Source of the DNA: a virus
Strand: one strand, 5' to 3'
Length of the DNA stretch: 41,356 bases
Virus record (IMG/VR): IMGVR_UViG_3300010354_000195
Coordinates: 1-41,356 of that record
This document shows, in pieces, positions 21,201-41,356 of this stretch. A program made the position numbers and the translations under genes. Position 1 is the first letter of the stretch. Every line of letters begins with the position of its first letter. The notes beneath the pieces were generated by a model. It saw only the letters and a list, made by a program, of their open reading frames with translations. It ran no database searches and was not told the origin of the DNA.

Positions 21201-24200
21201 TAACTGGGAAATAATATCCTTGAGTTCCATCTGGGAAAATAGTGGTTGTACCATATCCAGAAGAGTCACAAGAGAAGTTAAGATCGAATAGTCTGATTGT
21301 ATTTCCTGGGGAAAGTAGATGATTCCAATCAGTGCTTACCGTCATAATACCAGTAACATTATCATAAGTTACAGATGTAATACCTATAGTTGCACCAGCA
21401 CCGATTGGGCAATCAAACACAATATTCTTTAACTTAATAGTATCACTGACAGTAAAGTTGTGATCATAATTAAATGTTATTGTTGATACACCAGTTGTTT
21501 TGTGATAATCAAAATTACTGACTGTATATGGTATTCCTCTTTCATCTGGGAATATGTCAGTTGTAATTCCAACCTCTACAGTTCCACCGCCCAAATAATT
21601 ATGGGTAATGGTGCTTATACCAACATTAGTTTCGAAACTAGTTGAGTTGATGATCTTATTAGTTGTAAAGATATAACCCCTTGTTCCATCTGGGAATATT
21701 GTTGTTGTAATTCCAGAAGGACCACTACAATTAAAGTTAAGATTGCGTAACCTTAAATTAACGCCAGTTGCAAGATAGTGTGGAGATGCCGTTGTTACGG
21801 TCATAATTCCAGTCGTCTTATTATATGCAACTGTACTAATTGCAACGTTTGGAGTTATTCCAGCATATCCATCTGGACACTCTAGTTTAAGATTTCTAAT
21901 AGAAATTTGATCACCATACACAAATCCATGAGCATCTGATGTAGTAATTGTTGCAATACCAGTTACATGAGAATATGTAAATCCAGTGAATGAATTATAT
22001 GATGCGGTAGTTGCATATCCAATGATTTCGGTAATCTCACCAGAAGGTCCTGTTTTAACACCAACACTAGCACCCTCAGGTATTGCATAACCCAATCCAC
22101 TAGTTGATCCAAGAGAAATGATGATACCACCTCTTGGAAGTTGATTCTGATTATAATCAACTAAAGATTTAACTTTCGATCCATCAGATGATGTAATACC
22201 ACTGTAAATGACTTCGGTTTTTCCACCAGTCTCTTGCAATTCATAATTATTTCCAGAGTTGTTTTCTGTTGTTGGTATTTGGAATAACTGGTTGTTGAAT
22301 AAAATACTGTTACCAGGTTCTATTCCTGTCGTATCTTCACCTAAAGAAGTTAAGACATAAGTTTCTCCAATTCCAGTGAAACTATCTGATATATCATCAT
22401 ATACTTTGTTCGTTGCATAGTCTTTTCTTAAATATACTCTACCATCAAAGGATGAATACGCTTTAAGTAAATTGCTATTGTCAAGTCTAGCAAAACCACT
22501 ACCAAGAGGTGCTTGTGTGAAGTATAAAGTGCTATCTTCAATATTATATCCTCCCCTGTAAACCCTAGCTTCAGTTCCATCTGGATGATTGGTAGATATT
22601 GATCCAGAGAATCCTCTCTCAACATTCATTAGCAGATATGTTCCAACACCACTTATTGGACCAGTTTCACTTGGACCAGTACCAAAATTAACGATCTTCA
22701 TGAATTCGTTTCCAACTTTCAAGACATCGTTAATTCTTATCGAACTAATTCCACTGATACTGAAAATAGTAGATGCAAGAGAAACTTGTCCACTATTATT
22801 AACCAGCGAATAATTAATTGGAGTATATGCTAATGGATACTGTATTACATTATCTACAACTATCAGAGATTTTTCTAATCTCTTTGCCATTGTAAATTTA
22901 TGTGCATTTCCACTTCCCCTGGAAGTAAATGTAAATCCAATACCACTATTTTGAGTTCCAGTTATCTTAAATCTATCATTGTCTAGTTTAATTACATAAA
23001 CATTTGATGGGCAAACATCAGTTGCAATACCAGATGTATAAGTTACTCTAAAACTAGAACCAACGGAAACTGTTGATAATGAAACGCCAATACTAAGAGT
23101 ATCTGAATAATAAGTAACTCCAGTTCCAGCAGCGACAGTTGTACTAGCAGTAATTGATCCAACACCAACTGCAACGATCGATCCTATCGAAGTTCCATTT
23201 CCAGAATATATACCAGATCCAACAGTTAATACTGCAGTATTTGCAATTCCAGTAATTACTGTAGATCCTGTAGAAACATTGCCAATGAAATATCTGTAGG
23301 TTTCACCAACACTTACAATAGTACTACCAGATGGAACTCCAAAACCAATTACAGATTGACCAGGAGTCAAACCAGAAGAAGTAGAAACTCCAGTTATGGT
23401 GCTAAATCCAGCAATCAAGTCTCCAACAAATGTTGTTCCACCAACTAAAGTTTCTCCTATTCCGATTGGGACTGCAGGTAAACCAATAAATGTTGATTGT
23501 GGAGTGTACTCAACATTTTCGGATGGGGAGAAAAAGTGGTTTTTAACAGTGAAAACACCAGTTTCAGTATTTAACACCTCTGGGAGTGATGGATTAAATA
23601 ATTTGCTAAAAATTGGAGTTCCCTCATGAGACAAACCAAAATCTAAACGATTAATTCTATCTCCTTGAGATCCATTAAATTCTCCAAGGAAAACTTTTTC
23701 GGTAATTGGTCCATTGATCAAATCTGGGGGAATATTAGCAGCATCTATTTCAGTGTAAAGTTGTTCATTAAAACTTATTATTTCATAGGTTCCTGTTATA
23801 CCAGGATCTGGATAAAACTTCAATTCTAAACGATCACCTTGATATTCTCCACCAAATGTACCTATACCAGTTGTGCTACCAATCGATAGGAATGGACCTT
23901 GTAGAGTATAGATATCTCTTCCATCATGCATTACCATTAATTGATGAAGAGCCTTTGTTTCTCCAATACTTACATTAACATAACTCTTAACACTAGTTAT
24001 CAAATTACTACTAAATCCAACATATGAAGTCGAAGATCCACCAACACTTTCAGTTAAATTGGTTACATATCTTGCACTTCTTTCATTCTCCTGTCCTTCT
24101 AGTGCAAATCTATAAGTTCCCAACCCAACTGATTTTGATACAAAAGTACCAAATCCAATAATTCTAGATCTTATTTGTTGTGTTGATGTTCTGTTATTGG

Positions 24201-27200
24201 CAAAATCTAACTTTAATACTCCAGATTCTATGTAAGATGTGAAAGATCCAATTGATATCGATGAAACTTCAGTACTATACTTATTGTTATCAACAATAAA
24301 TTCGGATTGGTATGCATCTACACCATCATGCGAAACATAAACCTCATAGTAGTTTTGTTCATTATTGTCCAAGTCTAAAATGTGAACAGAACCAAAGAAA
24401 GATTGTGTAGTATTAGCATCGACTTGGAAAATAGTTGTGGTGTTGATTCCCAATGCTTGATCACTTTCAGCATAAAGATTTACGGAACCAATCGATAAAG
24501 CACTACTAATTCCAGATATTGTTGTATTATATTGATTTAATAGAATCTTGATGTCATAATCATCAGTAAAAATAGATTCTGGGAAAATTCTCAGAGTCAA
24601 GTTGTCAAACTGATCAACATTACCTTGTAAGTCTGCAACAGGTCTTTGATCCCCATTGGATGATAAAGTTCCCTTCTCAATACTGAATACGTTCGCATCT
24701 TTAATACCTTCGATTAAAACATCACTATCGGTGTAAAGGACAATCAACTCTGTGAGTTGAGTCTCTCTAGTTTTAGTATTTTTAATTTGTATTAAAAATC
24801 TTGCGAATGGTTCTATGTATGTGTAAAGATCCGTAAATCCTTGTTCCGCAGTATTTGCATTAGAAAACTGTGGACCAATATTATCTATTGAGAGAACTCT
24901 ATTAGTTCTACACTCAATATAGTCCGATAATTTCTTATTTTTAAACTTAACAAATTTGGAATAAGTCTTACCGTCAGATTTAATAATATCCTGATCAAAA
25001 ACTAAGTCAACATTGTATATGGCATCAACTCTTTTTTCATCAATCAAATCAAAGATTGCAATATTATCAATATCTGATGATTGTACTGACAAAGAAGATG
25101 CCGAAGATACTTGAGTATCTGCAAAATTCTTAAGACCTGATGGATGTAATAATCTATTAACAGAGTCTATAATTTGATCATATGTTTTGCTACTCTTAAT
25201 AGAATATGCTAAGTTTTGATAGTAATCATTATCAGGTATAACTTGATAATCTTCATCTAGCTTACCAACATCATCCAACCAACCAAAATTCTTGGTTAAG
25301 GAATATGAGGTCTCAAATCTACCAAGATTGGTTGTTCCACTATTAACTGTTGCTTCAGTTCCAGATAAAGAACCTCTAATAATATCACCAACAGATAACT
25401 CATATTCTCCAAAAAGTTTTACGGTATTAGATCTAAAATCCGTAACAACTAAATCAGTTTCAATAAAATCATTAGTTCCCAATCTAATAGATACTTGCTC
25501 ACCAATCACAAAATCAGATCTTTGTTGTATAGGTGTAAAAGTCGGATAATCGACTTTCTTTGTAATAGATGCAAACGAAAACTGTTCTGTTTTTGCTAAT
25601 CCTGGATTTCCAACAGCAACTTCAGAAATACTATATTCTAATTTTGCTGGAATTGTATTTTCAAATGAAGAAACTCTGAAGAAAGTAAAGTCATAATCTC
25701 TGGAATTAAATCCTGTTCCAGGTCTTTCTAGAGTAATGTTTTCTACAAATATTTGATCACCTTCAGTAAATGGTGCGGTGCTAAATCCTAAAAATGGTGT
25801 TGTTAGGAATGCGGTAACAATTCCTACTCCAGACGTAATAACACTGGAAATACCAACACCATTACTATTCTGAACCGTGTATATTTCGTGAAGTACCGAA
25901 TTTAAACCCTTAGGTACATCAACAACTTCTACATTACTTATGGATGAAGAATAAGTATTTGCCTTTAAGAAACCAGAATTTATAACTGTTTTAGTTACAG
26001 GATTAAATATAACCAACTCTGGTGGAGATGTATAGTTTCTTCCTCCAAAATTAACACCTACAGAAACAATCTCATTGTTATCCACCAAATTTACTATTGG
26101 AGAAACCAAAGCTTCTGGTCTTAAAGTTTTATCGGATGCGTATTCAAATCCTTGATTTAAAATTCTAAATTCTCTAACATTACCAATATCTACACCAGAA
26201 ATGGATATGTTAGCATTGGTGCCATTTACTGATCGTATTTCGACGAATGATGGTATTTTCTTATATCCAAATCCACCAAATACGATATCAACTTTGTCAA
26301 CACCACCAGTAGAAGATCTTGAAGTAGTTGTATATTCTAAATCACCCTCATTAAAAGTATACGAATCTGACTCTGGTCTAGTTCTCAATGCAATATCAAA
26401 AGTTGTATTACCAACACCAGATATTGCATATGTTCCAGAATAAACACTGTCAATATATCTAATTTGAGAATAATCAGTAACTGTTGTATCAGATGTGCTT
26501 ATAAAACCTGATTTTTCTAAACTATAGAATAATTTCGAAGGTATATTATTCGAATAATCTATGGTAACATTAGAACCAGAAGTTCCAAATATACCAGTCT
26601 TAGTAATATTAAATTGATCTGTTGTTCCAACAGAAACAAATTCATTAGATAATTGTGAATCTGTAAAGAACTGTAGTTTAAATCCTACTAGTGAAGAATC
26701 TGAAGTATCAAATTTTAAATTATTATTTTTATATGGTGTTAATGGTGGGTTTATTAGACTTAATTCTTGAGATGATCCACCAGTATTTGCAAATCCAACA
26801 GTAATAATTGGATTTGATTTTAAATCATTTAAAGTTTCACAAAGATTGATCTTATTATCATCTATTCTATAAACATAATACGAACCTGTCTCTAAACCAC
26901 TAACAATTAAATCATTTGCATCATAAAAAACTTTATTACCAGTTTGTAAACCATGAAGTGGCAGTGTTATAGTATTTGCAAAAGAATCTACAGATGCTGA
27001 CCCAAATCCTATTGGATTGACTAAAATTTTATCATAATTTGAGTTATATTTTAAATAAACATAATCACTATTTCCAATTCCCTGTGTTCCTTCTGGTTTT
27101 ACCGATAAAGTAACACTATCACCAAGTTTTAGAGTGTGTGATGTTGATAAGGAAACAACCGTTTTATTGTCAATAATATTACCAATTACACTATTTTTTA

Positions 27201-32389: not shown

Positions 32390-34285
32390 TTATCTCCTCG
32401 TTAATTCTCCGTTTGAATAGCTTGATGTAACTTTAAAACCAACACCTGATATTTGTTCACCAGAAGATATTGTATCTCTTACCATATTTATCTTACTACT
32501 GGAGACATCTAGTGAGAGATATAAGTCTTTTAATCCAACAACATCATTGGATTCTGGGTATGCCTGAATTTGAATAATGTTATTATCCAATGCTGTTGTT
32601 CTAATCTGAACTGGTCCTATAAGAATTTCCCCAGTTGTATAATTAACAGTTCCTACCTTACTGTTTACAACTCTATAATCTCTTGTACCCTCATCCAATG
32701 TCACAATAGAAATTATTCCAGATCCATTAGTCCCTGGAGTATCGGTGAAGTAACATGTATTATTTTCACCAAAAATAGTAAATCCAGTACTCTTAATATT
32801 CAGACCTTTTGTATTAACATGGAATTGATTTCCAAAACATAATTCATATTGTGCTGTTTTATTAATCTGAGCATTTAAATTTCTTCTAAGAATTACTTTT
32901 GTAATGTTAGAAGTTATAGCAGAATCTGAATTATCAATTAACTGTAGTAGTTTGCTATATTTAAATCTTCCACCAAACTTATTAAGATCTACAGATCTTG
33001 AATAAGAGTTTACTACATTAAATATTCCAGATTTTAAATTATCTACATTAGTTACTTGAGATGAATTATAGTAAATATAACTATCAATCTCAACATATAG
33101 AATTTTAAGGTCAACTAACTCTTGTTTGATACCTACCAGAGAATATCCAGAAAGTTTATTTAATATCTGTTGCTTATCAAAGTCAGAAACAAAATCACCA
33201 TTTTTTGGTTTGATACTTATTAAAACCTTTCCATATTGTGGAGGAACTAACTCCTCACCACCAACAACAGATACTGACTCTGTATTTGGATATATTGATT
33301 GTATTACAGATTCATAGTCTCTAGCAGTTACTGCTCTGTATTGTGATGAATATAATCTTGGTGCGAAATATTTAATCGAATCAAGAGACTCAATTTCACC
33401 ACCACCCTGTGCATTTCTAACTGTATTAACCGTAACTGGACCAGTTGGAATAACTAATTCACCAACTGCACCTCGAACCGTTCCTGCATAATCAAATACA
33501 CTAGGACCATTTCCATCTTCACCATCAGTGATAATGTATGATGCTGTTATAATTGCCCCATTCTCAAGTTTTTTGCCGAAAAATCCGTCACCAAATAATA
33601 ATTCATACTTCTCATCCTTAATCTCTTGGATTAAATAAGTTTCTGAATTTGCAGTAATGTTTAAGATATTATCTATTTTTTGATATTCTTTTCCTTGTCC
33701 ACCATCAGATAGACCTTTTACACGAACAAGTATTGTTGATGAGTCAATAAATGAGTTGTCAAGAACAAATCTTTGATCTAGGGAACCATTGTTAACAAAT
33801 TCCTTTTTTAGATATGTTCCTTGATATATCTCTATAGGATCTGTTGCTGTACCAAAAGTGGCGACTCCATTCACAATTGTTGTTGTGATTGGTTCTGGTA
33901 TCGAAAAAATATAAGAACTATCGTTTGTATTGCCAACACAAACTAATCCAGCATCCAGTGTTAGAGTTGCTGAGGATGATGAAGTTGGAATACTAAAATA
34001 AACTTGTGCCTTTGCTGCTGTTCTTGAGCGAGGTACATAACCAACATTTCTTGCTAATGAAACGACGTTCTCACGAATGCTCGCAGAATCCAAGAACGCT
34101 TCATTCGCAACCATGTTGGTGTTGAATGCAGTGATATATGTATTATACGCTAAGGTATCAATCAAGACAGAGAAGTTAGATCCCTCAAAGTCAAAATCAG
34201 TAAAATTGGAATTTGCCCTGAGATAATCTTTAATCGATGTCTTTATCTGATCAAAGTCTAGATTTGTAAATTTTGTAAAAGGCAT
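32390..34285 (-). CDS. 6: Baseplate wedge protein gp6
   Basis: Gp6 joins neighbouring wedges into the iris-like ring of the baseplate. At 631 aa it is near the T4 length (660 aa). The start MPFTKFTNLDFDQIKTSIKD, then FTDFDFEGSNFSVLIDTLAY and NEAFLDSASIRENVVSLARN, is the conserved gp6/J-like N-terminus. Further on are LFGDGFFGKKLENGAIITAS, NAQGGGEIESLDSIKYFAPR and AVTARDYESVIQSIYPNTES, all typical of baseplate J-like wedge proteins. It starts one base after the gp25 stop, and the gp7-like gene begins one base after it, giving the T4 order 25-6-7-8. No unusual insert is visible, in contrast with its neighbours. Confidence 0.93.
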   Translation of the reverse strand: MPFTKFTNLDFDQIKTSIKDYLRANSNFTDFDFEGSNFSVLIDTLAYNTYITAFNTNMVANEAFLDSASIRENVVSLARNVGYVPRSRTAAKAQVYFSIPTSSSSATLTLDAGLVCVGNTNDSSYIFSIPEPITTTIVNGVATFGTATDPIEIYQGTYLKKEFVNNGSLDQRFVLDNSFIDSSTILVRVKGLSDGGQGKEYQKIDNILNITANSETYLIQEIKDEKYELLFGDGFFGKKLENGAIITASYIITDGEDGNGPSVFDYAGTVRGAVGELVIPTGPVTVNTVRNAQGGGEIESLDSIKYFAPRLYSSQYRAVTARDYESVIQSIYPNTESVSVVGGEELVPPQYGKVLISIKPKNGDFVSDFDKQQILNKLSGYSLVGIKQELVDLKILYVEIDSYIYYNSSQVTNVDNLKSGIFNVVNSYSRSVDLNKFGGRFKYSKLLQLIDNSDSAITSNITKVILRRNLNAQINKTAQYELCFGNQFHVNTKGLNIKSTGFTIFGENNTCYFTDTPGTNGSGIISIVTLDEGTRDYRVVNSKVGTVNYTTGEILIGPVQIRTTALDNNIIQIQAYPESNDVVGLKDLYLSLDVSSSKINMVRDTISSGEQISGVGFKVTSSYSNGELTRR

Positions 34286-34286
34286 T

Positions 34287-34688
34287 TTATCTGGTTGCCT
34301 CTAGTATGAATGTGAATTGTTGTGCTGGAGTTTCTTGACCAATAATCTCAAATGATATATCAACTTCAAAAGTATTCGAATCTGGATCTGGATTTACCTC
34401 AACATCTAATCCTGTAATTCTTGGTTCATAGTTTCTAATTGATGTGATAATTTGCTCTCTAACAACAGATGCAGTAGCAAAATCAACAAAATCAAATAAA
34501 GAACTTGTAATTTCAGATCCAAGATTCGAATTAAAAAATCTTTCAGTTGGAATTGTTTGCACTAAATTTCTAACCGAACGAAGAATTGCCCGCTCATTTA
34601 CAAGAGCTGGTAAGTCTTTTGTGACAGGATGGGGTTCGAAAGATAAACTAATATCCTTAAATCCCCTTGACGTCCTTTGAACGGGCAT
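34287..34688 (-). CDS. 25: Baseplate wedge protein gp25
   Basis: A 133-aa protein, nearly the same length as T4 gp25 (132 aa), a conserved wedge-sheath link related to TssE of type VI secretion. The start MPVQRTSRGFKDISLSFEPH, the middle NERAILRSVRNLVQTIPTER with FFNSNLGSEITSSLF, and the conserved EPR motif in IRNYEPRITGLDVEV identify it. It is the first gene of the wedge operon: a CATAAATA late promoter lies just upstream and gp6 starts one base after its stop. Confidence 0.93.
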   Translation of the reverse strand: MPVQRTSRGFKDISLSFEPHPVTKDLPALVNERAILRSVRNLVQTIPTERFFNSNLGSEITSSLFDFVDFATASVVREQIITSIRNYEPRITGLDVEVNPDPDSNTFEVDISFEIIGQETPAQQFTFILEATR

Positions 34689-36188: not shown

Positions 36189-36953
36189 TCAGATAACGCG
36201 AGTTTTTTCGTGTCCAACGCGAATGCGAGGATCACACCAGATCTCCATACCTGCTGCAATTGCATCAAGACAGAATGAAACGTCTTCACCACACATATCC
36301 TGAACATCACCACTCTCAAAGACTTGCATCTTAGGAGCAAACCAAGGATACTTGATTTCAGGATGCTCAAACACACCGTGCTTAATGAGCAACCAACCAA
36401 AACCAGTATAATCAACTGTAAATGGTTTCTTACGCTTCGAAATGCTTTCGAGCGTTTCGTGATTCATCACACCACCATTATTACGGAAGTCATCTTCTTC
36501 CAACCAATGAGCAACTGATGTAGTACGACCATCTTCGGTACAGTACCAACCAGCAGCAATATCTTTATCCATCAGAACAAGTTGCCAAAACTTTTCTGAA
36601 TTAAAAACAATATCACTATCAATCCATAGTTGATAATCATATTTCAGCTTACCGTCCCAGGGAATTTGATCGGGACCACGGAGAACATTTGCTCCTAGAA
36701 CTTTGCAACGGGCAAAGTTAACCATGGAGCTATAATCTTGTGAAATCTGAATACTTGCACCACATTGCACAAGATCGAAACAGAGTTGTACAAAACTCTT
36801 TAGGAATGCGTAGGAGACTCCTCTACCAGGTAGGCAGAAAACAATGCTTTTACCCTGAACCATTTGACGTGCCAGATCATAGTCAAATTCTTCAGTTGGA
36901 TTGTTTTTGGCAACTACTGGCGTTTTTGCTTTAACAGTAAATCCTTTAGCCAT
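36189..36953 (-). CDS. Glycosyltransferase-like protein, 254 aa
   Basis: Contains a GT-A-like arrangement. Near the start is KSIVFCLPGRGVSYAFLKSF, then YSSMVNFARCKVLGANVLRG, and a DxD-type motif in YDYQLWIDSDIVFNSEKF (DSD at 112-114), the usual metal and nucleotide-sugar site. Further on, TVDYTGFGWLLIKHGVFEHP and FESGDVQDMCGEDVSFCLDA (acidic GED) resemble the acceptor-side part of such enzymes. It has no signal peptide or membrane segment. A sigma70-like promoter lies 24-53 bases upstream of the ATG. Its substrate is unknown; cyanophages often carry such genes, possibly to modify virion or host components. The enzyme class is inferred from motifs only. Confidence 0.72.
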   Translation of the reverse strand: MAKGFTVKAKTPVVAKNNPTEEFDYDLARQMVQGKSIVFCLPGRGVSYAFLKSFVQLCFDLVQCGASIQISQDYSSMVNFARCKVLGANVLRGPDQIPWDGKLKYDYQLWIDSDIVFNSEKFWQLVLMDKDIAAGWYCTEDGRTTSVAHWLEEDDFRNNGGVMNHETLESISKRKKPFTVDYTGFGWLLIKHGVFEHPEIKYPWFAPKMQVFESGDVQDMCGEDVSFCLDAIAAGMEIWCDPRIRVGHEKTRVI

Positions 36954-36976: not shown

Positions 36977-37006
36977 ATCATAACATATTATATAGAGGGA
37001 AGTCAA
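36977..37006 (-). promoter_or_regulatory. Sigma70-like promoter TTGACT-N18-TATGAT
   Basis: On the minus strand TTGACT (37001-37006) and TATGAT (36977-36982) are 18 bases apart, ahead of the glycosyltransferase-like gene. TTGACT overlaps the stop of the AbrB-like gene. The overlapping TATATAAT is an alternative -10, but its spacing from TTGACT is too short. Confidence 0.55.
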
Positions 37007-37176
37007 GAAGGATCATATTCACTTAATATGACTTCATCGCCCTCAAGATCGAATTTAATCTCAGTATCTTCATACCAAGAAAGTTCATTAGCGATCCACT
37101 CAGGAATTATAACATGATATTCACCAGTAATCGAATCCACAATGATTGGTTTGATATTGTCGGAATTTTTTTTCAT
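37003..37176 (-). CDS. Small AbrB/MazE-like protein, 57 aa
   Basis: Starts MKKNSDNIKPIIVDSITGEY, with HVIIPEWIANELSWYEDTEI and KFDLEGDEVILSEYDPS. The order 'D..tGe..v.IPe.ia.eLgw..d.ei.f...gd.viL' is that of AbrB/SpoVT/MazE swapped-hairpin proteins, which bind DNA as dimers and serve as regulators or antitoxins. No toxin gene lies beside it, so a toxin-antitoxin pair is not supported. It lies at the border between the AT-rich core genes and the GC-rich array. A regulatory role is inferred. Confidence 0.7.
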   Translation of the reverse strand: MKKNSDNIKPIIVDSITGEYHVIIPEWIANELSWYEDTEIKFDLEGDEVILSEYDPS

Positions 37177-37386
37177 ACGCCGTTATATTGTTTTTTCTTA
37201 TATAGCGTAGTGCGACTTTGTAGAACTTTTTTATTGGCGAAAAAATTTTTAGACCCCTTGTGTAATTTTAGCTCGCTTTGGTAACACTTTATAGATTAGG
37301 GTAGTTAGGGGTTTTTATACACGCGGCCCCGCCGCCGACCGCCCACGGGGGCGGGGGCACTGCGGGCACGAACGAACGGCGCTGCC
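37177..37386 (-). other. Boundary gap with a strong GC hairpin
   Basis: No gene is visible. Bases 37177-37318 are AT-rich and contain TATATAAG on the minus strand (a possible weak promoter for the AbrB-like gene). At about 37320 the composition changes abruptly to GC-rich. Bases 37326-37358 can form a stem (GCCCCGCC with GGCGGGGGC, one bulge). No U-run follows on either strand, so it is not a standard rho-independent terminator, but it could stop transcription leaving the small-gene array. Confidence 0.5.
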
Positions 37387-37608
37387 TCAGCGCACGTCTG
37401 CCAGGGCGCTGTTAGCGGTGCTCATGCGGGTGCCATGAGAACCAGCGGCGCCGCCATGAGTGCGAACGCGGGTGCTGCCGCCTTTGATGCGATCCGCCCA
37501 ACGGTTGGCGGAAGTGCCATGGGAGGTGGGCAGGCGCTTAAACTTCAGAGCACCTGAGGCGATGGCAGCGTTCAGATCAGCAGCGGTCATCACGGTGGGG
37601 GTGTTCAT
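37387..37608 (-). CDS. Hypothetical array protein, 73 aa
   Basis: Starts MNTPTVMTAADLNAAIASGA and continues LKFKRLPTSHGTSANRWADR, ending with a Gly/Arg/Ser-rich tail. The open frame extends further upstream, but that part reads through the promoter, so the ATG at 37608 is preferred. The tail (GGSTRVRTHGGAAGSHGTRM) is basic and probably flexible. A predicted promoter gives a 17-base leader without a Shine-Dalgarno site. It is the last gene of the array before the composition boundary. No homologue is recognised. Confidence 0.65.
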   Translation of the reverse strand: MNTPTVMTAADLNAAIASGALKFKRLPTSHGTSANRWADRIKGGSTRVRTHGGAAGSHGTRMSTANSALADVR

Positions 37609-37624
37609 GGGTTGGGGTGTGAAC

Positions 37625-37640
37625 TGAGAGAATTGTAGCA
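37625..37640 (-). promoter_or_regulatory. Array promoter, TGC-TACAAT
   Basis: Extended -10 TGC-TACAAT (TACAAT at 37632-37637 on the minus strand), then six bases and a predicted start A at 37625. The leader AGTTCACACCCCAACCC (17 bases) precedes the ATG at 37608 and has no Shine-Dalgarno site. Confidence 0.6.
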
Positions 37641-37657
37641 CGGAAGCGGGGGAGGGG

Positions 37658-37825
37658 TCACCCCCATGGATCACGAACGTCCTTACGGAAGGCGTCAGCG
37701 AACTGGGCGGACCACACGGAGGCGGGGTGACCATGGTGGCGCTTGTCGATCACGGCGCCGTCGTTAGCGTAACCGACCCAGACCGTCTGGCGATCGGTGA
37801 GGCGGGAGGCAGGAGAGAAACGCAT
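37658..37825 (-). CDS. Hypothetical array protein, 55 aa
   Basis: Starts MRFSPASRLTDRQTVWVGYA and ends AFRKDVRDPWG. A strand-turn-strand start (TVWVGYANDGAVIDKRHHGH) is followed by a helix (ASVWSAQFADAFRKDV). The frame can be extended upstream by 65 codons, but that extension crosses the promoter and overlaps the previous gene, so the ATG at 37825 is used. No family is recognised. The third-base choice is GC-rich, as in the rest of the array. Confidence 0.65.
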   Translation of the reverse strand: MRFSPASRLTDRQTVWVGYANDGAVIDKRHHGHPASVWSAQFADAFRKDVRDPWG

Positions 37826-37841
37826 TGGAGGTCGTCTGAAC

Positions 37842-37857
37842 TGAGAGTATTGTAGCA
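37842..37857 (-). promoter_or_regulatory. Array promoter, TGC-TACAAT
   Basis: TACAAT at 37849-37854 (minus), extended by TGC, then ACTCTC and a predicted start A at 37842. The leader AGTTCAGACGACCTCCA (17 bases) has no Shine-Dalgarno site. Confidence 0.62.
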
Positions 37858-37859
37858 GA

Positions 37860-38072
37860 TCAGCGGGCGTCGCGATCGTCCTGAGTGACCCCACCGTTCC
37901 ACCCACAGTCCTGCATCTCCCAGAGGAGGTCGTAGGATTCAGGGCAGGCATCCTCACGGGTGAGCATCTCACGCAGCAGGCGATCCTGAAAGTCCAGGTC
38001 CCCGTCAACCTGGCAGTCACACCAGAGTGATTCCAGTTCTTCGAAGGTCAGGTCGGTGAGGGTGAGGGTCAT
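37860..38072 (-). CDS. Hypothetical acidic array protein, 70 aa
   Basis: Starts MTLTLTDLTFEELESLWCDC and ends TQDDRDAR. It is strongly acidic with several Cys (WCDC, DACPE, QDCGW) and probably helical (FQDRLLREMLTRED). An acidic, compact protein of this size could act as a DNA mimic or a binder of a host factor, but nothing specific supports this. It has its own promoter, with a 15-base leader almost identical to that of the gene at 38927. Confidence 0.7.
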   Translation of the reverse strand: MTLTLTDLTFEELESLWCDCQVDGDLDFQDRLLREMLTREDACPESYDLLWEMQDCGWNGGVTQDDRDAR

Positions 38073-38086
38073 CTGTCGTTTGCTGT

Positions 38087-38102
38087 TGAGAGTATCCTAC
38101 AG
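38087..38102 (-). promoter_or_regulatory. Array promoter, TG-TAGGAT
   Basis: TAGGAT at 38094-38099 (minus), then ACTCTC and a predicted start A at 38087. The leader AACAGCAAACGACAG is 15 bases. With the promoter at 38942-38957 it forms a near-identical 35-base module (two mismatches). Confidence 0.62.
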
Positions 38103-38112
38103 GGGGGATGGG

Positions 38113-38313
38113 TCAGTCTCTGTCGCTGATGTGCCAGACGGTCGATTGGACCTGCTGAGCGGATCCGTTGCGGATCGCTTGGCGGTGCGCTTCCTCACGC
38201 TTCAGGCGCTCCAGGTAGGATGCCATCGCTGACTGTACAGCAGGGTCAGCAGCAGCGGTAGCGTTGACCAGGAAGGCGCCGCCGTGAGCAGGTTGGAGGG
38301 GTTGTTTCTTCAT
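38113..38313 (-). CDS. Hypothetical array protein, 66 aa, predicted leaderless
   Basis: Starts MKKQPLQPAHGGAFLVNATA and ends STVWHISDRD. A helical stretch (VQSAMASYLERLKREEAHRQ) follows a small Ala-rich region. The open frame extends six codons upstream (MCHTKG), but these codons are the promoter itself. CATACT is followed by AAGGGC and then the ATG, so the predicted start of transcription is the A of the ATG. No family is recognised. Confidence 0.68.
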   Translation of the reverse strand: MKKQPLQPAHGGAFLVNATAAADPAVQSAMASYLERLKREEAHRQAIRNGSAQQVQSTVWHISDRD

Positions 38314-38328
38314 GCCCTTAGTATGGCA
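38313..38328 (-). promoter_or_regulatory. Array promoter CATACT, leaderless type
   Basis: TGC-CATACT (38320-38325, minus) followed by AAGGGC and ATG; the expected start base is the A of the ATG. It directly follows the U-run of the terminator at 38330-38351. Confidence 0.62.
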
Positions 38329-38329
38329 C

Positions 38330-38351
38330 AAAAAAAGGGGGCAGCGCCCCC
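38330..38351 (-). terminator. Rho-independent terminator
   Basis: On the minus strand GGGGGC-GCT-GCCCCC is followed by seven T. It lies 13 bases after the stop of the 55-aa gene at 38365-38532 and is immediately followed by the next promoter, so one unit ends where the next begins. Confidence 0.85.
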
Positions 38352-38364
38352 ATGGTGGTCAGTT

Positions 38365-38532
38365 TCAGAATTGGATCGGATCGGCAGTCGGTGCGCTGAT
38401 TGCGGCATAATGGGCAGCAGCGTCGTCAATGTTGGCGTCTGCCACGTCGTTGGCGATCGTCTCCAGGATCTCCAGGATTTGGGCGCCGTTGCTGGCGCGG
38501 TTCAGGAGAGCAGTTGCGAGGTCAGCAGTCAT
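38365..38532 (-). CDS. Hypothetical acidic helical array protein, 55 aa
   Basis: Starts MTADLATALLNRASNGAQIL and ends PTADPIQF. It is almost wholly helical (EILETIANDVADANIDDAAA) and acidic, with no Cys or membrane segment. No -10 box is seen in the 36-base gap before it, so it is probably co-transcribed with the 53-aa gene upstream. A strong terminator follows. I have a vague memory of similar short Ala/Leu-rich proteins in cyanophages, without function. Confidence 0.7.
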   Translation of the reverse strand: MTADLATALLNRASNGAQILEILETIANDVADANIDDAAAHYAAISAPTADPIQF

Positions 38533-38568
38533 GAGAGAAGGAAGGTAAAAGGTCAGGGGGTGCTCAGG

Positions 38569-38730
38569 TCAGCGGGCGAACTGAGCGAGGGAGGAAGGTG
38601 CCACGTGGGCAGGGGAACCACAGGAGCGGTAGAAGTCTACCATGCTCTCTGCCTCCTCCAGAGTGGGGAACCATTGCGAGCGCCACTCGCAATTGTTGTA
38701 GGGGGTCTGGTAACGGATTTCGATTCGCAT
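38569..38730 (-). CDS. Hypothetical array protein, 53 aa
   Basis: Starts MRIEIRYQTPYNNCEWRSQW and ends SSLAQFAR. The order is strand (RIEIRYQTP), then NCEWRSQWFPTLEEAESMVD and FYRSCGSPAHV. It looks like a small beta-alpha domain with an aromatic-rich strand, as in short proteins that annotate as 'strand, WF.tleeA..m..fY'. Two cysteines are present. An upstream start is possible only through the promoter and is rejected. It is the first gene of a two-gene unit with the 55-aa gene. Confidence 0.7.
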   Translation of the reverse strand: MRIEIRYQTPYNNCEWRSQWFPTLEEAESMVDFYRSCGSPAHVAPSSLAQFAR

Positions 38731-38746
38731 GGGGTGGATTGCGGTG

Positions 38747-38762
38747 TGAGAGTATTGTAGCA
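38747..38762 (-). promoter_or_regulatory. Array promoter, TGC-TACAAT
   Basis: TACAAT at 38754-38759 (minus) with a TGC extension, then ACTCTC and a predicted start A at 38747. The leader ACACCGCAATCCACCCC is 17 bases without a Shine-Dalgarno site. Confidence 0.62.
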
Positions 38763-38771
38763 GGTCGGGGG

Positions 38772-38927
38772 TCAGTCCCACCAGTTGAAATCGCGGTTGA
38801 TGCCTCCAGGTGCTTTGATAGCGAGCAGGGCGCCGATGCCCATAGCAAGGGCAAACATCAGAGCGACCTTACCAGTGCCCTCAGGCAGTTGGTGGAAAAG
38901 ATCGATGATGGGGGAGAGGTCAGGCAT
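38772..38927 (-). CDS. Small membrane protein, 51 aa
   Basis: Starts MPDLSPIIDLFHQLPEGTGK, then one hydrophobic helix VALMFALAMGIGALLAIKA (about residues 21-39), then a short tail GGINRDFNWWD. One transmembrane segment with a short, aromatic-ended tail is predicted. It has its own promoter, and its stop lies 10 bases before the next one. Function unknown; small phage membrane proteins often interfere with host membrane or envelope functions, but this is inference. Confidence 0.68.
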   Translation of the reverse strand: MPDLSPIIDLFHQLPEGTGKVALMFALAMGIGALLAIKAPGGINRDFNWWD

Positions 38928-38941
38928 CGGTCGTTTGCTGT

Positions 38942-38957
38942 TGAGAGTATTCTACAG
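38942..38957 (-). promoter_or_regulatory. Array promoter, TG-TAGAAT
   Basis: TAGAAT at 38949-38954 (minus), then ACTCTC and a predicted start A at 38942. The leader AACAGCAAACGACCG is 15 bases. It is a near copy of the module at 38087-38102. Confidence 0.62.
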
Positions 38958-38966
38958 GGTCGGAGA

Positions 38967-38981
38967 GGGGGGTTGCCCCCC
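38967..38981 (-). other. G/C-run hairpin between array genes
   Basis: GGGGGG and CCCCCC arms (38967-38972 and 38976-38981) with a 3-base loop lie between the stop at 38994 and the promoter at 38942-38957. No U-run follows, so it is not a standard terminator, but it stands where one would be expected. Confidence 0.5.
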
Positions 38982-38993
38982 CGTGTGGACGGT

Positions 38994-39221
38994 TCAGAGA
39001 TCGTCCATCATCTCACAGATCTCCAGACCATCGATGGCAGGGTCATCCCAGCGGCAACCGTCAGGAGTCTCTTTGCTGCCGCAGTCGTACAGCATGGCGA
39101 CCAGTTCCTGATAGTTGCAGCAGCGGCGAGCGGCATCATAGAGGGACTCGTCATTCTGAATCCAGAGGGCAACGTTCCAGGTCTCCCAGTTTGCCCATCC
39201 GTTGTAGGTTGCGGTGCTCAT
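38994..39221 (-). CDS. Small phage protein of NGWxNWETW type, 75 aa
   Basis: Starts MSTATYNGWANWETWNVALW and continues IQNDESLYDAARRCCNYQEL. The motif 'yNGW.NwETW.v.LW..nde.ly' is one I recognise from small phage proteins (DUF7249-type, from memory; present in several cyanophages). The rest is acidic, with a Cys pair and ICEMMDDL at the end. No catalytic residues can be named. It has its own promoter and 17-base leader. Confidence 0.78.
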   Translation of the reverse strand: MSTATYNGWANWETWNVALWIQNDESLYDAARRCCNYQELVAMLYDCGSKETPDGCRWDDPAIDGLEICEMMDDL

Positions 39222-39237
39222 GAGGTGTCGTGTGAAC

Positions 39238-39253
39238 TGAGATCAGTATAAGG
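39238..39253 (-). promoter_or_regulatory. Array promoter TATACT
   Basis: TATACT at 39245-39250 (minus), then GATCTC and a predicted start A at 39238. The leader AGTTCACACGACACCTC (17 bases) shares AGTTCACAC with that of the gene at 37608. The stop of the previous gene (39256) is almost in contact with the -10 box. Confidence 0.62.
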
Positions 39254-39255
39254 GG

Positions 39256-39372
39256 TCAGCGGCGGATCAGGTCGCCTGCAGTGTACAGTGCCTCTGCTGT
39301 CACAAGGCGCACGGGACGGATCGGTTCCCAGAGCAGATACAGCAGACCTGCAGCGATCAGGAGACGGAGCAT
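39256..39372 (-). CDS. Small membrane protein, 38 aa
   Basis: Starts MLRLLIAAGLLYLLWEPIRP and ends ALYTAGDLIRR. The first 15 residues form a hydrophobic segment that would act as a membrane anchor or uncleaved signal; an Arg-rich tail follows. No promoter of its own is seen, so it is probably the third gene of a unit from the promoter at 39765. Coding is supported by the orderly stop just before the next promoter and by composition, but it is very short. Confidence 0.6.
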   Translation of the reverse strand: MLRLLIAAGLLYLLWEPIRPVRLVTAEALYTAGDLIRR

Positions 39373-39416
39373 GGTAGCACGGTGGAAGTCAGCAGAGCGG
39401 GAGCGGGTGAGTGCCT

Positions 39417-39578
39417 TCACTTGCAGTAGGAGGGGTCAACGTTGCAAAATGCCTCTGCCTGCCGTTCCTGGTGGGCGTTAACGGTAGCGACTGCCTCCAG
39501 GGTCCAGGCGCCTGCCACAATGCAGACGGAGCAGAACAGCATGGCAGCGATGGCAGAGCGGAAGGTGTGGTCAGTCAT
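39417..39578 (-). CDS. Small membrane or secreted protein, 53 aa
   Basis: Starts MTDHTFRSAIAAMLFCSVCI and has a hydrophobic segment AIAAMLFCSVCIVAGAWTL (about 9-27), then a charged part NAHQERQAEAFCNVDPSYCK. The tail has two Cys that could pair in the periplasm. It starts 4 bases after the stop of the 60-aa gene, so it belongs to the unit from 39765. A signal anchor is more likely than a cleaved signal, because no clear AxA site is seen. Confidence 0.66.
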   Translation of the reverse strand: MTDHTFRSAIAAMLFCSVCIVAGAWTLEAVATVNAHQERQAEAFCNVDPSYCK

Positions 39579-39582
39579 AGGA

Positions 39583-39765
39583 TCAGAGTCCGTTCAGGAA
39601 GTCAGCGAGTGCCTCTTTGTAGTCTGCTTCAGTCTCAAAGCGGCGTCCGTGGATCTCACGGGGATAGGTTGCAGGGATGCCTGCTGCTGCGACGGTTTCG
39701 CAGTCTTGGCGATCGTACCCCATCTCAACCAGGGTGGCAACGTAAGGATTGGTGATTTCGTTCAT
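39583..39765 (-). CDS. Hypothetical array protein, 60 aa, predicted leaderless
   Basis: Starts MNEITNPYVATLVEMGYDRQ and continues DCETVAAAGIPATYPREIHG, ending ADFLNGL. The segment YVATLVEMGYDRQDCETVAA looks like a short helix-MGY-helix, similar in outline to UBA-type helical bundles, but too short to assign. The promoter TATACT-AAGACC runs directly into the ATG, so transcription is predicted to begin at the start codon. It heads a unit with two small membrane proteins. Confidence 0.7.
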   Translation of the reverse strand: MNEITNPYVATLVEMGYDRQDCETVAAAGIPATYPREIHGRRFETEADYKEALADFLNGL

Positions 39766-39780
39766 GGTCTTAGTATAGGG
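39765..39780 (-). promoter_or_regulatory. Array promoter TATACT, leaderless type
   Basis: TATACT at 39772-39777 (minus), followed by AAGACC and the ATG. The expected start base is the A of the ATG at 39765. Confidence 0.62.
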
Positions 39781-39785
39781 GGTCT

Positions 39786-39995
39786 TCAGTTGAACCAGTG
39801 GGCAAGGTGTGCCAGTTCCTCTGCCGTCTCCTCCAGGTTGTCCAGGGTCAGTCCTGCCAGCAGGGAGTCGATGTCCTCCTGAGGCACACAGTCCAGGTCA
39901 CCGTTGACCTCTGCTGCCATGGCAGAGGCAAGTCCAAGGCAACGGTCCTGCAGGGTCATGGAGAAGTTGAGGACCTTGAGTTGTTCGCTGTTCAT
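39786..39995 (-). CDS. Hypothetical acidic helical array protein, 69 aa, predicted leaderless
   Basis: Starts MNSEQLKVLNFSMTLQDRCL and continues GLASAMAAEVNGDLDCVPQE, ending EELAHLAHWFN. It is acidic and largely helical, with two Cys. An extension upstream by 21 codons would read through the promoter and is rejected. The promoter TATACT-AAGGGC leads directly into ATG, so a leaderless transcript is predicted. No family is recognised. Confidence 0.7.
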   Translation of the reverse strand: MNSEQLKVLNFSMTLQDRCLGLASAMAAEVNGDLDCVPQEDIDSLLAGLTLDNLEETAEELAHLAHWFN

Positions 39996-40010
39996 GCCCT
40001 TAGTATAGGG
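39995..40010 (-). promoter_or_regulatory. Array promoter TATACT, leaderless type
   Basis: TATACT at 40002-40007 (minus), then AAGGGC and ATG; the expected start base is the A at 39995. The same TATACTAAGGGC string appears on the plus strand at 40089-40100. Confidence 0.65.
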
Positions 40011-40085
40011 GGTCAGGGGGCGTCTGCCGCGGCCAGTGGACAGTTCGGAAAGTGGCACAGGATCGGTTGTAGGGGGTTGCCGCGG

Positions 40086-40101
40086 CCCTATACTAAGGGC
40101 A
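40086..40101 (+). promoter_or_regulatory. Array promoter TATACT on the plus strand
   Basis: TATACT at 40089-40094, then AAGGGC and a predicted start A at 40101. It is the same core as the minus-strand promoter at 39995-40010 but points to the right. It would start a short transcript ending in the hairpin at 40190-40207. Confidence 0.55.
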
Positions 40102-40129
40102 CAAGCGAAGGAGGGGCAGGGTCGCCCTG

Positions 40130-40168
40130 ATGACGAAAACGGTCGCCACCGCCCCTGCCAAAAAATAA
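40130..40168 (+). CDS. Possible 12-aa peptide MTKTVATAPAKK
   Basis: An ATG-to-TAA frame of 13 codons. A strong Shine-Dalgarno AAGGAGGGG (40108-40116) lies upstream, then a perfect 5-bp hairpin CAGGGTCGCCCTG (40117-40129), and the ATG follows directly; folding of the hairpin would bring the two sites close together. The peptide is basic at the end and has no known relative. The transcript could equally be a non-coding RNA whose A-rich part follows a GC-rich head. It is the only convincing plus-strand unit in the window. Confidence 0.35.
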   Translation: MTKTVATAPAKK

Positions 40169-40182
40169 TTATAAAAAAGTAT

Positions 40183-40207
40183 AAAAAAAGGGAGGCAATC
40201 GCCCCCC
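40183..40207 (-). terminator. Rho-independent terminator, possibly bidirectional
   Basis: On the minus strand GGGGGGC-GATT-GCCTCCC (one G-U pair) is followed by seven T, 6 bases after the stop of the 115-aa gene. On the plus strand the same stem is followed by TATTTGTT, a weaker U-rich tract that could end the rightward transcript from 40101. Confidence 0.8.
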
Positions 40208-40213
40208 TATTTG

Positions 40214-40561
40214 TTATGCGAACATGAAACCATTGGTGAAGTCGTACTCATTGTAAACAGGAGAAGTTCCTGCCTGTCCGATGAACTTATGAACAAACCA
40301 ATTGAAGTTCCGTTGGAATACACATTCGCCCTTGATTCCGTGCTCCGAAAGAATAGCATTCAGGCGCGATTTGGTGGTCTTTGACTGATAACCACCGTCA
40401 AAGATTTGCACAAAGTCATCACCAACCACGGCGATTTTGTTACCGTGCAGGTATACAGTCGACTCGTTAGTTTCAGGATCAAAGGTCACCGAAGTGTTGT
40501 CACATTGCCAGTTGCGGTTCTCACAAATGGCAGCGTTCATTTCACGTTCGATCTTACGCAT
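40214..40561 (-). CDS. Conserved-looking phage protein, 115 aa
   Basis: Starts MRKIEREMNAAICENRNWQC and continues DNTSVTFDPETNESTVYLHG. Then come NKIAVVGDDFVQIFDGGYQS and TTKSRLNAILSEHGIKGECV, ending TNGFMFA. The pattern 'R.iE.eMn.Ai...nw...nT.V......s.VyLHGn.Ia......dgG.qs.TTksRLNa.L' is one I know from many cyanophage and other marine phage hypothetical proteins. It probably forms a compact alpha-beta domain. A TTG start 7 codons upstream exists, but the predicted transcript start lies there, so the ATG is chosen. Its base composition is closer to the phage core than to the GC-rich array. A terminator follows. Confidence 0.78.
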   Translation of the reverse strand: MRKIEREMNAAICENRNWQCDNTSVTFDPETNESTVYLHGNKIAVVGDDFVQIFDGGYQSKTTKSRLNAILSEHGIKGECVFQRNFNWFVHKFIGQAGTSPVYNEYDFTNGFMFA

Positions 40562-40579
40562 GAGTATGTGATGTGTGAA

Positions 40580-40595
40580 CAATGGTAGTATGGCA
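40580..40595 (-). promoter_or_regulatory. Array promoter CATACT
   Basis: TGC-CATACT (40587-40592, minus), then ACCATT and a predicted start G at 40580. The leader GTTCACACATCACATACTC (19 bases) shares GTTCACAC with the leaders at 37608 and 39221 and has no Shine-Dalgarno site. Confidence 0.58.
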
Positions 40596-40665
40596 CCCCA
40601 TGGGGGTCTGTGGGGGGTTTGGTGGACAGTTCCCCAACTGGTCGGGCGGCCGCTTCGCGGTATAC

Positions 40666-40893
40666 TTAACCGCCAAACATTTCATCAAAGAGGTCACCCA
40701 TCTCACTCAATTCGATGTGGCGATCCATTTGATTACGTGCCTCAATCAGTGCCGATTGTTTAGTACGAAGTTTGTCAATCTCTACGTTGAGAAGATGCAA
40801 ACGAGTGTTAATCTGGCAGCGATCCAGACCATTAACGGTCAGCACCTGGTGCTCCATTCCGTTGATGATTCGGGGTTGTTCAGTAACAGTCAT
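40666..40893 (-). CDS. Small coiled-coil protein, 75 aa
   Basis: Starts MTVTEQPRIINGMEHQVLTV and then a long helix (TRLHLLNVEIDKLRTKQSAL, then IEARNQMDRHIELSEM), ending GDLFDEMFGG. The N-terminus looks like a beta hairpin (IINGMEHQVLTVNG) and the remainder a coiled coil. Its ATG overlaps the stop of the 17-aa membrane peptide (ATGA), so the two are coupled. I recall short proteins of this type in cyanophages, with no function known. Confidence 0.72.
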   Translation of the reverse strand: MTVTEQPRIINGMEHQVLTVNGLDRCQINTRLHLLNVEIDKLRTKQSALIEARNQMDRHIELSEMGDLFDEMFGG

Positions 40894-40943
40894 TTTCTAA
40901 AAAACCAGAGGATGATTAACGAACCTAGGATAACAGTTGTCAT
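40890..40943 (-). CDS. 17-aa membrane micropeptide
   Basis: The frame reads MTTVILGSLIILWFFRK: one hydrophobic helix with basic C-terminal residues. Its ATG overlaps the TGA of the upstream 58-aa gene (ATGA), and its TGA overlaps the ATG of the downstream 75-aa gene (ATGA). Both junctions are the overlaps expected of coupled translation, which supports a real gene despite its size. A role as a membrane-acting peptide or a coupling spacer is possible. Confidence 0.55.
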   Translation of the reverse strand: MTTVILGSLIILWFFRK

Positions 40944-41116
40944 CGCCAATCCAGGAAAGTGGCAGGGTTGCCATAGTCTCCGATGACCATTCCGTTCTGG
41001 CGGACTTCAGCGTAACCGTACTCTTCAGAGAGGTCGTAGCAGAGGTCCCATGCCCTGTCGGCATCGGTGGTAGTGTTCTCCCATGGAGCAGAGGGGCAGA
41101 TCACGTCAAGGCGCAT
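40940..41116 (-). CDS. Hypothetical array protein, 58 aa
   Basis: Starts MRLDVICPSAPWENTTTDAD and continues RAWDLCYDLSEEYGYAEVRQ, ending GNPATFLDWR. It looks like a small alpha-beta protein with an acidic helix (ADRAWDLCYDLSEEYG) followed by a strand pair (YAEVRQNGMVIGDYG). It is the first gene of a three-gene unit with the 17-aa and 75-aa proteins. The leader is 20 bases, A-rich, and without a Shine-Dalgarno site. No family is recognised. Confidence 0.72.
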   Translation of the reverse strand: MRLDVICPSAPWENTTTDADRAWDLCYDLSEEYGYAEVRQNGMVIGDYGNPATFLDWR

Positions 41117-41135
41117 TTGGTTTCGTTTCGTTTGA

Positions 41136-41151
41136 TGCCCTTAGTATGGCA
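41136..41151 (-). promoter_or_regulatory. Array promoter CATACT
   Basis: TGC-CATACT (41143-41148, minus), then AAGGGC and a predicted start A at 41136. The string CATACTAAGGGC is the same as at 38313-38328, but here the A starts ATC rather than ATG, giving a 20-base leader. Confidence 0.6.
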
Positions 41152-41156
41152 CGAAT

Positions 41157-41178
41157 CAGGGGGGTCCACAACCCCCTG
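41157..41178 (-). other. G/C-run hairpin before array promoter
   Basis: CAGGGGG (41157-41163) and CCCCCTG (41172-41178) form a perfect 7-bp stem directly upstream of the promoter at 41136-41151. There is no U-run. It resembles the hairpins at 38967-38981 and 38337-38351. Confidence 0.5.
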
Positions 41179-41212
41179 TGTGCCACTCTGTCAACTGACC
41201 CCAGGCGGCCGC

Positions 41213-41256: not shown

Positions 41257-41356
41257 TTAGATAGCGTTGGGCGGTTCTTTTAACTCAACGCCATTATCTT
41301 CGAACCATTCGTCACCATAATACTCACGAACTTCGTTAATAAGTTCTTCCTCAGAG
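41257..41356 (-). CDS. Hypothetical protein, C-terminal 32 residues (5' end off the window)
   Basis: The frame is open from the right edge to a TAA at 41257-41259 and reads SEEELINEVREYYGDEWFED then NGVELKEPPNAI. It is acidic and helical, with an aromatic-rich part (EYYGDEWFED). Its base composition is AT-rich, like the phage core, not the GC-rich array, so the array is embedded in phage-type sequence on both sides. Too short to assign. Confidence 0.65.
   Translation of the reverse strand, partial: SEEELINEVREYYGDEWFEDNGVELKEPPNAI

Follow-up and report, generated by a model that had tools for sequence, protein, structure and literature searches.

Here we examine an array of small genes at the end of IMG/VR virus record IMGVR_UViG_3300010354_000195, the whole of which (41,356 bases, hereafter the window) was analysed and represents a fragment of a T4-like cyanophage. 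The array contains 15 minus-strand genes of 38-115 amino acids (aa), designated g1 to g15, together with a 17-aa frame; the initial annotation of this DNA had the size range and the short frame right and counted 14 complete genes, where our recount gives 15. Predicted promoter units of one recurring geometry stand before eleven of them (g1, g3, g4, g5, g8, g9, g10, g12, g13, g14 and g15), in agreement with the earlier proposal that most genes or gene pairs have a promoter of their own, while g2, g6, g7 and g11 have no such unit and seem to be transcribed behind the preceding gene. This architecture is real and widespread, and its distinctive features are an apparently leaderless class of genes, the fusion of stop codons with promoters, and an island of high guanine-plus-cytosine (G+C) content.

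Gene content and composition of the array

The array corresponds to the hyperplastic region of small genes that T4-like cyanophages carry near gp25/gp6. In a similarity search its neighbours matched Synechococcus phages (e.g. S-SRM01, S-SKS1 and Bellamy), with window positions 34004-34681 matching baseplate wedge genes of S-SKS1, and in the named relatives homologues of array genes occupy the small-gene region upstream of the baseplate wedge genes gp25/gp6. The final 4 kb of the window match 357 cyanophage records in a distant-mode search, and the array may continue past the end of the record at 41356.

In the window the array forms a sharp G+C island (about 0.56-0.63, and about 0.60 over 37300-40100, compared with about 0.35), which the initial annotation did not mention. 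Third codon positions have a G+C fraction (GC3) of 0.66 in the array genes, as against 0.18 in the large structural genes of the window, and the compositional contrast recurs in 22 related loci, where the array averages 0.564 and the downstream sequence 0.323. The island may have originated from a pool of genes passed between phages of different composition, or it may reflect selection favouring host-like codons where genes are read ahead of the accumulation of phage transfer RNAs (tRNAs).

Homologues were found for 14 of the 15 genes, all of them with a ratio of nonsynonymous to synonymous change (pN/pS) below 1 (0.14-0.65; pooled 0.34), and these 14 genes are under purifying selection. Searches of the array proteins against Pfam and PHROG returned families of unknown function only; a UBA hint in g5 and a hint of a metallopeptidase-like family were below threshold and were not used. 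Beginning at the end of the record, g1 (40940-41116; 58 aa) matches phrog_17176 and has homologues in 29 of 79 loci and a pN/pS of 0.14. Behind it lies the 17-aa frame (40890-40943), whose ends overlap the stop of g1 on one side and the start of g2 on the other (ATGA overlaps); it has no promoter of its own, and translational coupling is probable here. Next come g2 (40666-40893; 75 aa; phrog_3146) and g3 (40214-40561; 115 aa), the latter a Kyano_Gp96 protein (PF23790, Pfam E = 2.6e-46) with a pN/pS of 0.14. Homologues of g4 (39786-39995; 69 aa; pN/pS 0.45) occur in 4 loci; g5 (39583-39765; 60 aa) belongs to phrog_649; and the two promoterless genes behind it are g6 (39417-39578; 53 aa) and g7 (39256-39372; 38 aa), the second with homologues in 15 loci. 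The product of g8 (38994-39221; 75 aa) is assigned to DUF7249 (PF23907, Pfam E = 3.6e-21), and g9 (38772-38927; 51 aa) is the gene for which no homologue was found among the related loci compared. The remainder consists of g10 (38569-38730; 53 aa; homologues in 21 loci), g11 (38365-38532; 55 aa; no recognisable promoter here, homologues in 37 loci), g12 (38113-38313; 66 aa; phrog_14769), g13 (37860-38072; 70 aa), g14 (37658-37825; 55 aa) and g15 (37387-37608; 73 aa), the last of which is found in 65 related loci.

The boundary of the array is conserved in more than 60 loci and is marked by a small protein (37003-37176; phrog_661) and a 254-aa protein (36189-36953; phrog_1574) with a weak glycosyltransferase hint. 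An explanation of the array by tRNAs or known RNAs was dropped, given zero Rfam matches in the array region and no tRNA found in a search of the whole window.

Predicted promoters and junctions in the window

Twelve sites had originally been proposed to share a -10 box, exactly six bases and a predicted start base, which was A in eleven cases. A regular-expression (regex) check of the array recovered all twelve at this spacing: ten minus-strand sites and one plus-strand site match the rule exactly (-10 box, six bases, A), and the single exception, at 40592, reads CATACT-ACCATT-G, with a predicted start at G. The ATG coincides with the predicted start in three sites (40007, 39777 and 38325) and lies 15-20 nucleotides (nt) downstream in the others, as had been described. 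When set against 500 dinucleotide shuffles, a comparison of the kind that had been named as a possible refutation, the array is well above chance, with 10 exact matches on the coding strand (shuffle mean 0.4, maximum 4) and 1 on the opposite strand (shuffle mean 0.3); this test is partly circular because the motif was derived from the same sites, and the weight of the enrichment claim rests on the related-locus tests presented below. Matches to the late-promoter motif (NATAAATA) all fell outside the array in a scan of the window, and a standard -35/-10 scan misses the window array (4 matches compared with 2.5 by chance).

Eight of the minus-strand sites precede genes with a leader. The predicted promoters of g1 (41137-41148; start 41136; 20-nt leader) and g3 (40581-40592; start G at 40580; 19-nt leader) consist of CATACT and six nt, and that of g8 (39239-39250; start A at 39238; 17-nt leader) reads TATACT-GATCTC; a g8 homologue in a related locus (L002) is 88% identical and has a promoter of the same type. 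The sites before g9 (38943-38954; TAGAAT-ACTCTC; start 38942) and g13 (38088-38099; TAGGAT-ACTCTC; start 38087; 15-nt leader) belong to 35-nt promoter-leader blocks that are 94% identical. TGC-TACAAT-ACTCTC precedes both g10 (38748-38759; start 38747) and g14 (37843-37854; start 37842; an upstream TGA lies 5 nt before the -10 box), and TGC-TACAAT-TCTCTC precedes g15 (37626-37637; start 37625), each of these three with a 17-nt leader. The other three minus-strand sites place the ATG at +1 and belong to g4 (39996-40007; TATACT and six nt), g5 (39766-39777; TATACT and six nt, with the same geometry in S-B43) and g12 (38314-38325; CATACT and six nt). Units with this 6-nt gap are apparently leaderless, with transcription predicted to begin at the ATG itself.

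The plus-strand site is a divergent promoter, TATACTAAGGGCA, recovered by the regex check at 40089-40101 and forming a 16-nt inverted repeat with 39995-40010. It faces the g3 terminator and is followed by just a 12-aa frame in 40089-40230; a short RNA could be its product. An inverted TATACT element resembling it is present upstream of g12 homologues in two related loci (L004 and L006).

Several promoters of the window stand directly behind a G+C hairpin, a feature absent from the initial annotation. The clearest composites are 38351-38314, in which a predicted intrinsic terminator (38337-38351, minus strand; hairpin and T7 tract) directly precedes the g12 promoter to form a composite terminator-promoter, and 41186-41137, in which a hairpin upstream of the g1 promoter (41146-41186, minus strand; -24.1 kcal/mol, z -3.5) pairs TGGCAC with a GTGCCA extending into the -10 box. 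A further intrinsic terminator (hairpin and T7 tract) is predicted on the minus strand after g3 (40189-40208). Upstream of the g9 promoter, the minus-strand hairpin at 38967-38982 is terminator-like, has no T tail, and is no more stable than shuffled versions of this G/C-rich segment (z -0.98).

Promoter units in related loci

The initial annotation had suggested a search for the -10/N6/A motif across cyanophages, and such units proved to be widespread. Scoring 55 nonredundant related loci with a matrix of the promoter unit identified 247 forward sites, compared with 8 reverse and 6 in shuffled sequence, an enrichment of about 40-fold over shuffles. A matrix-free count demonstrated that the gap between the -10 box and the ATG is sharply bimodal, being exactly 6 nt in 25 cases (5 or 7 nt in none) and 21-28 nt in 256. 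The same two peaks were found in 64 further loci, each with less than 30% of its 21-mers in common with the earlier loci (6 nt, n = 24; 21-28 nt, n = 394; shuffles 0 and 8); nearly all of these loci were obtained through a promoter pattern typical of leadered units, and as a result the 21-28 nt peak is partly selected and the 6-nt peak is not. In 116 pattern loci the matrix counted 760 sites with unchanged offsets.

The 6-nt gap is retained within gene families: in 10 of 12 sites of the DUF6267 family, and in all six scored members of the g12 family elsewhere, including those of the marine isolates S-B43, S-RSM4 and ACG-2014i. DUF6267, the most consistently leaderless family, is represented in one locus (L012:477-1379) by a 300-aa protein containing a KIDGAP stretch that resembles nucleotidyl-transferase/ligase motifs. 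A dialect of the unit, ggccc-TACAAT-agccac, was identified in S-CAM9, where it is apparently leaderless twice.

Two general properties attributed to the promoters required qualification. A shared -35 box is lacking in the array, as had been stated; among the 229 sites of the relatives, five or more of the six TTGACA bases are present at 15-19 bp in 26, compared with 2.7 expected. Similarly, TG before the -10 box characterizes the TACAAT (47 of 85) and CATACT (11 of 12) classes and not the TATACT class (8 of 65), and since TGn is found in 75 of the 229 sites and is strongly class-dependent, an extended -10 is not a general feature of the array.

Among cultured phages, the type cyanomyovirus S-PM2 (NC_006820) possesses eleven units at 21542-24583, several of which seem to lead unannotated open reading frames (ORFs), and a few additional units between 8.6 and 17.1 kb. 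One S-PM2 unit lies directly before S-PM2p068, annotated as an anti-restriction protein.

Junctions between units are of two types: in the narrow type, 5 nt separate the end of the upstream stop from the -10 box (35 sites), and in the wide type, 34-53 nt do so (98 sites). A G+C hairpin occupies 64 of the 98 wide junctions, where 7 were expected, compared with 1 of 41 narrow junctions. TGGCAC, 37-fold enriched, occurs in 50 of 101 wide junctions at a median of 5 nt after the stop; the post-stop TGGCAC(A), e.g. at 41186-41181 of the window, sometimes pairs with a GTGCCA at the next promoter.

Gene order varies between related loci, and common families each have several different upstream neighbours, which allowed the association of promoter and gene to be followed. 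For the same gene behind a changed upstream gene (681 pairs), identity was 0.60 in the leader (+2..+9) compared with 0.48 when permuted (0 of 200 permutations), 0.50 compared with 0.45 at -22..-13, and 0.31 compared with 0.28, near background, farther upstream. For the same upstream gene before a changed downstream gene (128 pairs), the first 15 nt after the stop were 0.51 identical compared with 0.29. From these identities the exchanged unit appears to start at about the -10 region, span leader and gene, and end shortly after the stop, and the variable join between units appears to lie in the hairpin/-35 zone. These pooled pair comparisons lend support to the earlier proposal that promoter and gene travel together as units, with the leader following its gene and the core promoter doing so slightly. 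Furthermore, promoters of unrelated genes resemble one another within one genome more than permutation predicts (0.612 compared with 0.556 permuted; maximum of 500 permutations 0.573), and 34 pairs of promoters before unrelated genes share an identical run of at least 26 nt, one of them 50 nt long and including the hairpin.

Copies of the cassette in host genomes were sought with an exact scan of genome contigs for a single 20-nt pattern, which returned three stretches, none titled cyanobacterium, and gave no sign of a host origin. Only one of the three (L081; Rhodobacteraceae metagenome-assembled genome contig RGAJ01000223.1) has array genes together with a promoter unit, and it is probably a misbinned cyanophage contig.

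Cassette interpretation and its significance

Promoter early stem-loops (PeSLs) are reportedly mobile regulatory cassettes of T4-like phages, as attributed to Arbiol et al. in 2010 and Comeau et al. in 2014. We consider it likely, on the strength of the sequence comparisons, that the array is the cyanophage form of such promoter-terminator cassettes in the T4-like hyperplastic region. A typical cassette would begin with a core promoter for the host SigA-type RNA polymerase (CC-TATACT/TACAAT, six bases and an A start). The leader, where there is one, would be C/A-rich, 15-22 nt in length and devoid of a Shine-Dalgarno sequence, and between one and three genes, each of about 40-115 codons, would come next. 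The closing stop would lie either about 5 nt ahead of the following -10 box or in front of a G+C hairpin, with the next promoter behind that hairpin. Homologous recombination between promoter copies could then insert, delete and reorder genes without breaking expression, since the promoter, sometimes with its hairpin, is nearly identical before many unrelated genes. The genes would be transcribed before the late phase, early or middle, by the host polymerase, and may serve host takeover or counter-defence.

Several points weigh against this interpretation. The promoters are predictions from sequence, and the related-locus scans were restricted to G+C-rich stretches (at least 45-48%). A T-rich tail follows the hairpin in just 7 of 64 hairpin junctions, and many of these hairpins may therefore terminate poorly. 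The core promoter follows its gene weakly, and a single family can have TACAAT or TATACT depending on the phage; the site pairs lack phylogenetic independence, for which the permutations do not correct. Units are also few or absent at the corresponding place in Syn9, S-RIM8, S-H25, S-RIM2 and Bellamy.

The timing of expression admits a variant that is compatible with the cassette interpretation and that we regard as nearly an even proposition, namely that the promoters of the units are of the middle class and not of the early one. A 2016 study by Doron et al. reportedly found the middle genes of Syn9 to be read from host-like promoters and its early genes from a different element, a pattern from which the array may be middle. 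Syn9 has isolated units only, and its published transcription data are therefore not transferable to the array. SigA-like promoters are reported for all expression classes of Ma-LMM01 (PMC5780444), and the motif alone thus does not set timing. The initial proposal that unmodified host polymerase reads these genes is plausible, given the SigA-like -10 boxes and the reported lack of alt, modA, modB, motA and asiA in cyanomyoviruses (PMC2984593); its assignment to the early phase is conjectural.

A rival account, that these are ordinary dense host-type promoters kept by selection, whose likeness reflects the requirements of the polymerase with no modularity beyond normal phage gene turnover, appears unlikely. 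It would explain the -10 box and A start as SigA needs, the switching of core promoter type within a gene family, and the near-background identity of upstream DNA when neighbours differ, but runs of 26-50 identical nt that take in hairpin and leader and stand before unrelated genes of a single genome exceed what a polymerase needs, as do the post-stop TGGCAC element and the association of leader with gene. Very improbable is a role of the repeats in RNA, through polycistronic processing or ribosome loading at AGTTCAAACGA-like leaders with incidental -10-like boxes: the leader (consensus AGTTCA) is conserved past promoter needs and a Shine-Dalgarno sequence is uncommon (13 of 206), but invariance is highest at the -10 box and at the CA start six bases downstream, an ATG exactly at the predicted start in about 25 cases is left unexplained by an RNA signal, and hairpins before promoters suggest separate transcripts.

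More tentatively, the promoter-terminator cassettes can be viewed as a G+C-rich bank of pre-late mini-genes in which the promoter-leader or terminator-promoter segment is the exchange site, genes are swapped in integron-like fashion by homologous recombination without an integrase, and some families are strictly leaderless; we hold this extended version to be possible and somewhat doubtful. The likeness to integron gene cassettes is an analogy, confined to the notion of small-gene units that can be exchanged and are joined uniformly; every unit here has its own promoter, and an integrase or attC site was not noticed, and no search was aimed at them.

The initial statement that no description of this layout exists was too strong, PeSL cassettes and the S-PM2 'ORFanage' being close precedents. 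Like many units of the array, PeSLs combine a repeated host-type promoter and a stem-loop between small dispensable genes of the hyperplastic region and have been proposed as sites of homologous shuffling, whereas the array is found in cyanophages, a shared -35 box is lacking, one class has the ATG at the start point, many stops lie about 5 nt before the -10 box, T tails are few, and the G+C island is strong. T4 and T4-like coliphages likewise have numerous strong early promoters of host type before small genes that are not essential. The early promoters of T4 have -35 boxes and normal leaders, unlike most array units, which have no -35 box, and some of which are apparently leaderless. The S-PM2 ORFanage and the hyperplastic regions of cyanomyoviruses (PMC2984593, PMC4503421; Millard et al. 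2009) resemble the array in their small orphan genes upstream of gp25/gp6, and units of the array type recur in S-PM2 itself at 21.5-24.6 kb. Shuffling of the ORFanage genes and one host-like early promoter in S-PM2 were reported by Puxty et al. 2015 (PMC4503421), who considered PeSLs improbable for the deleted ORFs of their study in view of low promoter density; that argument covers ORFs at about 5-17 kb, whereas the dense array lies further on, and no account of this dense array was found in the searchable literature.

The wider interest is how cyanophage genes, mostly tiny and of unknown function, are gained, lost and kept expressed, and the rule of the unit (promoter class, leader, gene, stop and hairpin) offers a way to find such small genes. 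The spike of ATG codons exactly at the predicted start would mark a class of leaderless phage genes, and the contrast in G+C content and codon usage between the bank and the structural genes calls for explanation. Promoter-mediated shuffling is testable in the cultured pair of S-PM2 and Synechococcus WH7803, and shuffling by units suggests a route by which accessory genes are traded among cyanobacterial viruses.

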